From assembly GCA_016791475.1 (NCBI GenBank), contig JAEUWI010000023.1:1-64000 (forward strand): 64,000 nucleotides of DNA, in the 5' to 3' direction. Every line of letters begins with the position of its first letter. Position 1 is the stretch's first letter. This stretch comes from Candidatus Hydrogenedentota bacterium (GTDB taxonomy: Bacteria > Hydrogenedentota > Hydrogenedentia > Hydrogenedentales > JAEUWI01). The translations under genes were made by a program, and so were the position numbers. The notes beneath the pieces are model-generated. The model saw only the letters and a list, made by a program, of their open reading frames with translations. It was not told where the DNA came from and did not search any database. Positions 46,242 through 49,673 of the stretch are shown in pieces.

Positions 46242-46298
46242 TGATGAGCTGGACAGAACGGATTTGACCACGGAGACACGGAAGCACGGAGAAGAAGG

Positions 46299-46344
46299 AG
46301 AGAGAGAGAGAGAGAGAGAGAGAGAGAGAGTGTGTGTGTGTGTG
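46299..46344. repeat. (GA)16(GT)7 microsatellite
   Basis: An uninterrupted dinucleotide run: GA repeated 16 times (46299-46330), then GT seven times (46331-46344). It extends the GGAGAGAG end of the left cassette arm, so slippage there probably expanded it. Confidence 0.95.
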
Positions 46345-46415
46345 CACAATAGGAACAACCCCTAAAGTAAGTCAGGTAGTACTGGAGAGTGACCATCGAA
46401 CAGAGGAGCGATGAC

Positions 46416-46787
46416 ATGTTGGAAGAGGAACTTACGGAAAACATTATCGGCGGTGCCATTGAGGTTCACAAGTACTGGGGGCCTGGACTTTACGAGCAGA
46501 TCTACGAAAGAAGTCTTTGCCGGGAGTTGCAGCTTCGCGGATTGAAGTACGAACAGCAACTTCATTGTCCCCTGGTATACAAAGGGGAGACGGTGGGAGA
46601 CGAACTCAAGCTCGACCTCTGGGTTGAGCGGCGAGTCATTCTTGAACTGAAGGTCGTGACGGAGCTCATGCCCAAACATGATGCACAAATATTGTCGTAT
46701 ATGCGGCTCACAAAATGTCGTGTGGGCCTCCTTATCAATTTCAATGTGGCGGTACTGAAGGACGGCATCAGGCGCTTCGTACTCTAG
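46416..46787 (+). CDS. GxxExxY protein, predicted PD-(D/E)XK nuclease fold
   Basis: 123-aa protein of the GxxExxY family. The naming motif appears as GPGLYEQIYERSLCREL, and residues ELKLDLWVERRVILELKVV supply the Asp and Glu-x-Lys of a PD-(D/E)XK nuclease core, followed by HDAQILSYMRLT and KCRVGLLINFNV. Family members occur in several to many copies in Planctomycetes, Bacteroidetes and Verrucomicrobia; their function is not known. The ATG at 46416 has AGAGGAG 7 bases upstream; a GTG at 46389 is less likely. The gene is the only cargo of an inverted-repeat cassette inserted in the VWA/ABC cluster. Confidence 0.85.
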   Translation: MLEEELTENIIGGAIEVHKYWGPGLYEQIYERSLCRELQLRGLKYEQQLHCPLVYKGETVGDELKLDLWVERRVILELKVVTELMPKHDAQILSYMRLTKCRVGLLINFNVAVLKDGIRRFVL

Positions 46788-46982
46788 ACACAAGCAATGC
46801 AGCACATTCCATACCCATACAGCACCAGAAACGTCCCGTGGAGCCAGACAACAATGCAGCAACCTCCCAACAATCTCCCACATGAAGGTCTCCTCTCGGA
46901 GTCCGCTGCCAAGTCGCCATGGAACTCCGTGTCGCCGGGTACCCCCCCTCTCTCTTCTCTTCTCCGTGCCTCCGTGTGCTCC

Positions 46983-49673
46983 GTGGTCAAATCAATTTCT
47001 CCCTGCCCTGTCGGATTTTCCCTGCTTCAAGCTATTCTCTTCCTCACTCCCCTCCTCGCCCTCGTGCCCGCCGCGGCCCAGGACGACACGCCGGACGAGA
47101 CCATCCTCATCGACCTTACGATCAACCATGGCGTGGCCTACCGCGAGGGCACCTGGGTGCCGGTGGATGTGTTCATCAACAACACCGAGCGCGATATCGA
47201 GGGCTTCGTCGAAGTCACCACCTACGACTTCAGCAGCGAGCGCCTCAGCCCCGTCTACCGCGTTCCGGCCCTTTCTCCGAAGGGCTCCCGCAAACATTTC
47301 CGGCTCTACTGCAAGCTCCAACAGGCCAGCCGCGTCGAGGTCCAGCTTTACCACGGCAACCGCGCGGCGGTTCCCGTGCCCACCTGGGTCAATGTGGCGC
47401 CCATCGAGCGAAGGGACTATCTGGGCCTGGTGCTCGACAACAACCACCACGATTACGGGTTTCTCAGCAGCGAGCAGGTTATTGGCAAGACCGAGGTGCG
47501 CTTTCACCGTGAGGGGTTGAACACCGATCAGCTTGGCCTGCTGGCGGATCGCCTGCCCTGCTACACGGCCTTCGATCTGATCGTGATGGGCGATATCGAC
47601 CCGGAGCGCATCGCCCCGGAGCACCGCGCGCTGCTCCAGCAGTACGTGGAACTGGGCGGCACCCTGGCCATCAGCCTGGGGGAGAACGCCGCGCGCTACA
47701 AGGGCTCGTGGCTTGAGCCGCTCATGGGCGTCGTCATCGGCGAGAACACTTTCACCCCCGAGGATACGCTGGCCAGCCAGGCCTTCGGCAGAGCGGGCGT
47801 GGCAAAGCGCGAAGGCATGGTCACCGCCCTCTCGCCCGCGGGGGAAAAGGTTCAAGCCATCGGAAGCAACTTCACCCTCGGCGCCTTGAACCCGGTGGGT
47901 AACGGACGCGTCGCCACCTTCACCATCGATACCGTCAGCGGACTGATGCACAATGATCCGGACTTCCTCCGCGTCTGGAATGACCTCCTGAGCCGAAGCA
48001 TCATGGACCGGCCACTGAACCTTCCCGCAGTGATTGATGCCGCGGTACAACGCCTCCCCGCCCTCGCCGGTGTGAAGCTCTTTCCCGTTTCCTCGGTCAT
48101 CACCTACCTCCTCCTGTATTTCTTCATCGCCATCGTCGGCAATTGGTTCTTCTGGAACTGGATGAAGCGTCGCGAGATGGCCTGGGTCTGCCTGGTCTTC
48201 TTCTCGCTCGCGTTCACGAGCTACGCGATGATCTTCGGCACCCAGGGCCGCGCGCGGAGCACGAAACTGGAGCAACTGGAGATTCTCGAAGTCAGCGCCA
48301 ATTCCACCCGCGCGACTCTCCATGGCGTCACGGGCCTCCTCGCCAAGGGCAGTGGACGCTTTGAAGGTACCCTCATACATCCCCAGACCCTCGCGTCCGA
48401 CGTCGTGTCCACCGTGTACACGCCCGACGGCGTCACCTTTGGCTCTCAGAGCCAGTCGCCCTTTCAATTTGTTCAGGGAGAACCGGGCACGGTTCAGAAT
48501 GTCGCCGTGGGCGCGAGTGAAATGCGCTTCCTCCAGACCCAGGCGCCCCTCGACCTGTCCGGAACGCTGGAGGCGGACCTCGAAGAGGCGGATGGCAAGC
48601 TCAGGGGCACGATTCAGAACAAGACGGGACTGCTCCTCGGCCCCGCCATGCTGGTCTACAATGGTCGGGGAATGGCCCTCACATTGCCGGACGGCACGAA
48701 GAACGTCGATTTCAATCTGAAGGAGTTTCGCGGTCCTCGATCTGCAGTTTGGCAGCTCTCCCCCAACGATGCGATGACCGTCCCGGCTCTTTTCGAGCTT
48801 CAGGAGCGCAGCCAATTCTCCCAGTTTCTCTCTGAGATACCCCAATGGCTCTTCTCCGGCAATGGCTCGTCCCCGCCTCCCTGTCTGGTCGCGTGGGTGA
48901 ACGCCCCACCCGTGGGGAGCATCGATCTCGGCACGTCCGCCGACGATGACCTCGGCGCGACCCTGGCCGTGATGTGGCTCAATGTGCGGCCGGAAAGCGC
49001 GAATGGGGAAGTGAGTCTGGCCGTGGAATTGCGGGACCCGCAGTTCGCGCAGGCGAATTATTATCCCATGATGCAGACGATGGGCGGGCGGGGAATGACG
49101 GATACCGCTTTTCCCGACGGATTGCCCCTTACGCCCGACGACTGGAGTCGGAAGGCCCGGGCCATCAACCTCGGCGAATTCTGGACGGTCAACGTTACCC
49201 TTCCCACCTGGGTCCGCGCGTCGGACGACTACCTGCTCCAATTCGAAATCGTGACGGCGAATGCCTCGTATGCTTCGGAGACCGGAGGGCGTCGCCGCTC
49301 CAACCTGGGGATTGAGGAATACCCCCACGCAGCCTGCGAAGCGACGACAACCACCTCCGGCCAGCGCACGGTGACGCTGCGTCTGAGCGATATGGAAAAT
49401 CAGGAGCTGGAAATGCCCGGTCCGGCGGCCACCACAACCCCGCTGGAGAACAACGTTGTTCTGACGAGAGAGACCTATACGGTCGACGATTGGAAGGCGT
49501 GGTTACAGCCCCGTTCGTCAACCATCGCCCTGAAAGCCCAGGCCACCACCCTGGACGGCGGCACCGATCCGGTTGAGCTCACCCGGACGCGCGCGACGGC
49601 TCAGAACGCACACTATCACGCCTACATCGCCGCCCGCCTTGTCAAGCGCACACCCTCAACGGTTGGAGAATAA
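46983..49673 (+). CDS. Large membrane protein of the VWA/ABC cluster
   Basis: Protein of about 896 aa that I cannot name. From a GTG at 46983 it opens a good signal peptide (VKSISPCPVGFSLLQAILFL, then TPLLALVPAAAQ). A beta-rich exported half (TILIDLTINHGVAYREGTWV; PTWVNVAPIERRDYLGLVLD) contains a GATase-like segment (FDLIVMGDIDPERIAP, ELGGTLAISLGENAARY). Two or three membrane helices lie near the middle (VITYLLLYFFIAIVGNWFFW, WVCLVFFSLAFTSYAMIFG), followed by another exported beta domain. The frame is open from 46797, but that part is the cassette end, and no ribosome site precedes any candidate start, so translation initiation is uncertain. It ends 5 bases before the ABC ATPase gene. Confidence 0.65.
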   Translation: MVKSISPCPVGFSLLQAILFLTPLLALVPAAAQDDTPDETILIDLTINHGVAYREGTWVPVDVFINNTERDIEGFVEVTTYDFSSERLSPVYRVPALSPKGSRKHFRLYCKLQQASRVEVQLYHGNRAAVPVPTWVNVAPIERRDYLGLVLDNNHHDYGFLSSEQVIGKTEVRFHREGLNTDQLGLLADRLPCYTAFDLIVMGDIDPERIAPEHRALLQQYVELGGTLAISLGENAARYKGSWLEPLMGVVIGENTFTPEDTLASQAFGRAGVAKREGMVTALSPAGEKVQAIGSNFTLGALNPVGNGRVATFTIDTVSGLMHNDPDFLRVWNDLLSRSIMDRPLNLPAVIDAAVQRLPALAGVKLFPVSSVITYLLLYFFIAIVGNWFFWNWMKRREMAWVCLVFFSLAFTSYAMIFGTQGRARSTKLEQLEILEVSANSTRATLHGVTGLLAKGSGRFEGTLIHPQTLASDVVSTVYTPDGVTFGSQSQSPFQFVQGEPGTVQNVAVGASEMRFLQTQAPLDLSGTLEADLEEADGKLRGTIQNKTGLLLGPAMLVYNGRGMALTLPDGTKNVDFNLKEFRGPRSAVWQLSPNDAMTVPALFELQERSQFSQFLSEIPQWLFSGNGSSPPPCLVAWVNAPPVGSIDLGTSADDDLGATLAVMWLNVRPESANGEVSLAVELRDPQFAQANYYPMMQTMGGRGMTDTAFPDGLPLTPDDWSRKARAINLGEFWTVNVTLPTWVRASDDYLLQFEIVTANASYASETGGRRRSNLGIEEYPHAACEATTTTSGQRTVTLRLSDMENQELEMPGPAATTTPLENNVVLTRETYTVDDWKAWLQPRSSTIALKAQATTLDGGTDPVELTRTRATAQNAHYHAYIAARLVKRTPSTVGE

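Follow-up and report, generated by a model that had tools for sequence, protein, structure and literature searches.

Between two genes of a conserved cluster, the window (the whole stretch of 64,000 nucleotides analysed here) carries a small gene of the GxxExxY family enclosed by inverted repeats. What kind of unit is this, and what might move it? GxxExxY proteins are present in multiple copies across bacteria and archaea, and an open-access search returned almost no literature on them, the name appearing in two papers. A sequence-only reading of the window had taken the gene to be a nuclease and the sole cargo of an inverted-repeat cassette; this is correct and, as described below, general. 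The unit probably belongs to a widespread type of selfish cassette that is driven by its nuclease and ends in cognate arrays.

A nuclease gene between inverted heptamer arrays

The locus comprises the following features (positions are those of the window):

44247–46241, + strand: upstream neighbour, a gene of the conserved cluster, given here as its longest ORF
46261–46306, + strand: left arm, consisting of the GATTTGAC leader, three heptamers and the purine tail AGAAGAAGGAGAG
46297–46344, + strand: dinucleotide microsatellite, (AG)n(GT)n, within the cassette and sharing bases with the inner end of the left arm (read directly)
46416–46787, + strand: GxxExxY gene, 123 aa, PD-(D/E)XK fold (profiles, conservation, AlphaFold2)
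46948–46993, − strand: right arm, an inverted copy of the left arm with three heptamers
46983–49673, + strand: downstream neighbour, gene of the conserved cluster (the choice of start is inferred)

The arms, which the sequence-only reading had placed correctly to within 1 base, lie at 46261–46306 and 46948–46993 around a single ORF, the GxxExxY gene at 46416–46787, which is the only recognisable gene between them. Their alignment has 47 columns with one gap on each side and contains ungapped blocks matching at 15 of 15 and 19 of 20 positions. The pair scores 68; a score of at least 32, our threshold, is reached by only 0.4% of 1500 random places drawn from the host genome and one relative. In each arm the GATTTGAC leader forms the outer end and the purine-rich tail the inner end. 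The heptamers read CACGGAG-a-CACGGAA-g-CACGGAG in the left arm (spacing 8,8) and CACGGAG-ca-CACGGAG-g-CACGGAG in the right arm (spacing 9,8). The dinucleotide microsatellite (AG)n(GT)n at 46297–46344 comes after the left heptamers. The ORF list contains no transposase inside the cassette, nor does the unit hold a transposase of the known types that characterize insertion sequences; as had been noted from the sequence, the PD-(D/E)XK gene stands alone there.

The product matches PF13366 and TIGR04256, both at 137.7 bits, above the curated cut-offs (22 and 35, respectively), which places it in the GxxExxY family. Residues E27, D67 and K79 are invariant among 66 sequences, and E77 and Q91 nearly so. 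The AlphaFold2 model (pLDDT 96.2) is nearest to Cas4 SSO0001 (Z 9.9, rmsd 4.4 over 100 residues) and also matches Hjc (Z 7.1), with lambda exonuclease listed too. Model and catalytic residues together assign the PD-(D/E)XK fold. A search of the PDB by sequence gave no convincing relative, and the defence and phage families of PADLOC and PHROG gave no match.

Inverted arms around other GxxExxY genes

The host genome has six GxxExxY genes, and inverted arms flank every one of them (6/6), with upstream and downstream flanks of the same gene matching at 48–68 versus 18–32 for other pairings. The six pairs all differ (CGCAAAG, CACGAAG, CACGGAG, CGCAAAT, CACAGAT and CACGAAT types) and follow one grammar of about three heptamers, C-R-C-R-R-A-N, with a spacing of 8–10 nt. 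Since arms of the other GxxExxY genes have the same grammar in other letters, a search for the exact arm would miss the pattern. Thus, the search with the 46-base arm suggested earlier failed in its literal form, the exact window arm being rare elsewhere in the host genome, whereas the expected inverted pairs around other GxxExxY genes were found at the level of the grammar.

We then have, from order-level relatives, 116 non-identical GxxExxY genes, 110 of them with enough flank. Inverted arms (score of at least 32) are present at 97 of the 110 (88%), compared with 3.8% of mismatched flank pairs and the above 0.4% of 1500 random places; these two served as controls, the Uma2 family being too rare for the purpose. 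About 12% of the genes have no detectable arms. The heptamers conform to C-[AG]-C-[ACG]-[AG]-[AG]-[AGT], usually three per arm at a spacing of 8–10 nt; one clade has four per arm, and a minority of arms are ACAGGAT arrays. Since a fixed expression was used to find the heptamers, the constancy of their invariant positions is in part built in, and the tests of heptamer against nuclease rest on the variable positions.

The arrangement extends far beyond the order. A wide scan, limited to one genome per species and one nuclease clade, kept 80 of at least 585 matches. Inverted arms occur in 53 of the 75 loci with enough flank; the rate for mismatched pairs is 13% in this sample, since all loci share the arm class. 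The CRCRRAG class accounts for 45 of 47 typed cases, and the clade armed with it covers, among the kept matches, about 13 phyla, including Methanosarcinales (Archaea). Two matches labelled Hydrogenedentota (L247 and L217) agree in their aligned upstream arm with loci L053 and L038 of the order sampled above, so that the order of the window is probably Hydrogenedentota. CRCRRAG arms are also found in plasmid records of Bacteroides, Bernardetia, Sphingomonas and Gemmatirosa; the cassette lies between radA and the gene of an FAD protein in the record of Bacteroides finegoldii, and between fabD and fabG in that of Sphingomonas parapaucimobilis.

Arm type follows the nuclease lineage

Mapped on the nuclease tree, heptamer type requires 39 changes, whereas 200 global shuffles give a mean of 73.5 (minimum 68) and shuffles within genomes a mean of 66.3 (minimum 57). 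For the last base of the heptamer, 7 changes compare with 34. The host genome used as a label is random on the same tree (84 versus 81.7), which means that the cassettes do not follow host lineages. Taking the heptamer of the nearest nuclease in another genome gives an exact prediction in 60% of cases, and where the nearest nuclease is at most 50% identical, the last base is still right in 73% versus 35%.

Nearest pairs at 55–75% protein identity are especially informative. Their four-fold sites stand at 0.30–0.32 (0.28 at saturation), and the heptamers of the same pairs are identical at 0.92, compared with 0.70 in random pairs. Since heptamers remain 92% identical where silent sites have reached saturation, selection ties the arms to the nuclease; non-coding arms that merely hitch-hiked would be randomised, so that neutral linkage is disfavoured. 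Judging from the sequences, recognition of the arrays by the nuclease would follow from this selection together with the lineage fidelity. The fidelity of arm type could instead reflect autoregulation, not mobility.

Protein columns P19, L21 and H14 associate with the last base of the heptamer and T3 with position 5 (numbering from the residue at 46428 of the window), an association that phylogeny confounds and that serves as a lead only. The approximately 20 natural pairings of nuclease and heptamer are a possible source for reading the recognition code.

Insertion sites, duplication and gene-free arrays

The sequence-only reading had the unit fitting between two genes of a conserved cluster, and the cassette indeed sits between two co-directional genes, which adjoin each other in relatives that lack an insertion there. 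Three related loci (L063, L065 and L066) have an empty junction; in L063, from the same genus, the ATG of the downstream gene overlaps the stop codon of the upstream one (TGATG). In the window, the 5′ end of the downstream gene is split by the cassette. A second empty site was identified at ribF–ileS: Niveibacterium sp. 24ML carries a cassette of ~470 nt there, which is absent from its sister genome and other relatives. Accordingly, of the two signs of insertion that were to be looked for, empty sites were found at both places and target duplication at neither. The longest direct word shared by the flanks is 4.42 for own and 4.38 for mismatched pairs, which leaves room for very short duplications, and none is visible at the Niveibacterium site; ordinary IS-type transposition is therefore unsupported. 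We found no closely related genome pair with a just-moved cassette, the empty-site species being too diverged for exact junctions. The insertion sites seen lie between differing genes.

Insertion also touches the neighbouring reading frames. A GTG at 46983–46985, inside the right arm, is in frame with the signal-peptide region of the downstream gene, so that this gene may owe a new start codon to the insertion, and in Niveibacterium the left arm recodes the C-terminus of RibF. Other related loci have different arrays at the window junction, namely, a small hairpin of another array type (L067), a single array of another type (L064) and CGCAAAG arrays (L062), which represent independent occurrences at one intergenic junction.

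Duplication of an intact unit is seen in locus L068, where two cassette copies of 482 bp, 98.1% identical, lie about 160 nt apart; the ends of the copies fall in the arms and their flanks are unrelated. Arrays also occur apart from the gene. The host genome contains fifteen near-matches to the window array, the cassette included, and about eight of these are hairpins of ~150 nt, several of which have interiors related to one another. In 464 kb, a strict scan detected 14 arrays versus 2 in the reversed control. When two array types were counted per genome, copy numbers ranged from 0 to 157 and were 0 in most genomes, the reversed-pattern control giving 0 in all but one genome. Once the cassettes' own arms are removed, the extra arrays are enriched in the presence of the matching nuclease clade (Fisher p = 2.6e-4 and 0.013); three genomes (G001, G002 and G009) hold large array populations with no matching nuclease detected. 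Dispersed repeats like CACGGAGACACGGAG in genomes of this sort find an explanation in the anatomy of the cassette. At two places in genome G000 (C2:44940-45090, locus L320, and C1:166596-166720, locus L314) arrays are nested in, or adjacent to, hairpins of a different type, as though one element had inserted into the loop of another.

A parallel class around S23 genes

At 19 of 21 loci, genes of the S23 four-helix family (TIGR02436) lie between inverted arms. These arms contain strict 7-bp repeats in 17 of 19 cases and spaced heptamers in none, whereas GxxExxY arms contain spaced heptamers in 86 of 97 cases and strict 7-bp repeats in none. The S23-type genes lie outside rRNA (L025, L026, L027 and L108-L136) between strict arrays of TTGATAG, AAGGATG, AGGGTAT and other repeats, a parallel cassette class. 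Rfam detected no rRNA in the window, where its only match is one tRNA, and gave no match of any kind in 15 S23-gene loci. The S23 intervening-sequence proteins, themselves unexplained, are thereby connected with the same type of architecture.

Proposed mechanism and alternatives

The scenario that we propose starts from the observed anatomy: the only gene of the unit encodes a PD-(D/E)XK nuclease of the GxxExxY family, the frame consists of inverted arrays with about three heptamers apiece, and heptamer type and spacing are particular to each nuclease lineage. The nuclease would recognise its cognate arrays, either as duplex DNA or as a hairpin or cruciform formed by the inverted arms, and would then cut at the arrays or at a target, after which the array-bounded unit might be copied or inserted by host repair. 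Gene-free array pairs (mini-hairpins) would be non-autonomous copies spread in trans. Movement of the cassette is suggested by the empty sites, the duplication and the distribution; the nuclease presumably cuts the arrays, and this cutting presumably drives the movement. A broader form of the scenario is plausible though still tentative: the lineage-specific heptamer array may be an evolvable DNA (or RNA) code read by the nuclease, which would mobilise its own gene and the hairpins, with S23 as a sister class using strict 7-bp arrays. In either form, the anatomy gives GxxExxY proteins a testable role.

The main rival, although unlikely, operates at the RNA level. Here the unit would be transcribed and fold, as 23S rRNA intervening sequences do, into a stem that carries the ORF as its loop; the nuclease or RNase III would cut the gene's own stem, protecting the neighbouring message or autoregulating, with spread by reverse transcription or recombination. 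RNA folding predicts pairing of the arms (z = −4.05), genes of the S23 family, which is known from IVS elements, occupy parallel inverted-array cassettes, and the ends of the Coxiella IVS form a 28-bp stem processed by RNase III (PMC4990558). Orientation gives a divided answer: in the wide sample, 34 of 56 genes have both neighbours in their own direction, but the order set has no clear bias (both the same in 30 of 99 and both opposite in 19 of 99, by rough ORF calls). Moreover, a pure stem needs no heptamer grammar that tracks the nuclease, the spacing of the two arms may differ (8,8 versus 9,8 in the window cassette), and none of 16 sources (the window and the 15 S23-gene loci) holds rRNA by Rfam.

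The remaining explanations deny the nuclease a part in mobility. If the gene were a passenger, the arrays being moved in trans by another host or mobile enzyme and the arms kept by linkage, the lack of a transposase in the unit and the genomes with many arrays and no detected matching nuclease would be accounted for. Yet neutral linked arms would have been randomised along with the silent sites, S23 genes have another array class, and the arm class stays with the nuclease from phylum to phylum and as far as Archaea, a range over which a common trans-acting enzyme is unlikely; we regard this explanation as improbable. We give still less weight to a repair, restriction-like or regulatory nuclease with arms acting as operator or terminator and with no mobility at all. 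Its Cas4/RecB/Hjc-like fold and the suitability of inverted arms as autoregulatory binding sites agree with such a function, which is at odds with gene-free hairpins in tens of copies, duplication of an intact unit with unrelated flanks, empty sites, a phylogeny independent of the host and the lack of a PADLOC or PHROG match. Thus, of the two movers envisaged by the sequence-only reading, the self-driven nuclease fits best, since selection acts on the arms and their type changes with the nuclease lineage, the mobility of the unit being inferred; a trans-acting RAYT-type enzyme is less probable, because across phyla the arm class goes with the GxxExxY protein and not with the host.

Relation to known elements

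In RAYT systems, the gene of an HUH Y1 transposase (TnpA-REP) lies beside REP repeats. Work on REP/REPIN sequences and RAYT enzymes includes PMC3116915, PMC2817692 and PMC8266576. The cassette is best read as REPIN/RAYT-like in logic, with an unrelated enzyme. In both systems one small enzyme gene lies between short inverted repeats, these repeats are particular to the lineage of the enzyme, and many hairpin copies lack the gene. By contrast, the cassette enzyme is a PD-(D/E)XK nuclease instead of an HUH Y1 transposase, and no gene of the latter lies by the arms, the PD-(D/E)XK gene being the only one in the unit. The arms are arrays of spaced heptamers, whereas REP is one palindrome, and the cassettes differ further in having several enzyme/array types per genome and in occurring also in Archaea.

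Homing endonucleases, including those of PD-(D/E)XK types, are small nucleases that may spread their own genes through host repair, and the cassette nuclease may do likewise. However, the sites of the cassettes are many and unrelated instead of one conserved target, and the cognate inverted arrays and gene-free hairpins have no counterpart among homing endonuclease genes. MITEs and insertion sequences share inverted termini and short non-autonomous forms with the cassettes, which differ from them in lacking a transposase and a detectable target duplication and in having tandem heptamer arrays as ends. The 23S rRNA IVS, called a selfish element of unclear origin (PMC4990558), has a single ORF in the loop of complementary terminal arms, and S23-family genes are here likewise found in inverted arrays. 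Unlike the IVS, the cassettes lie between protein genes, as the window cassette does, and not inside 23S rRNA; their ORF encodes a nuclease and their arms have another grammar.

In the open-access literature, no known class that we tested has both this enzyme and these ends, and no array sequences were found in that literature. The recurrence of the arrangement around most GxxExxY genes sampled in bacteria and archaea, with a heptamer that goes with the nuclease lineage, suggests a selfish element of a type not described before. The four-helix suffix family TIGR04258 was considered as a third class and rejected, two loci (L029 and L031) being suggestive and the others unconvincing. In L029, a TIGR04258 protein (1376–1890) is framed by GACGGATAG-type arrays, and similar repeats run into its coding frame as S/T-D-R-T-D-like repeats.
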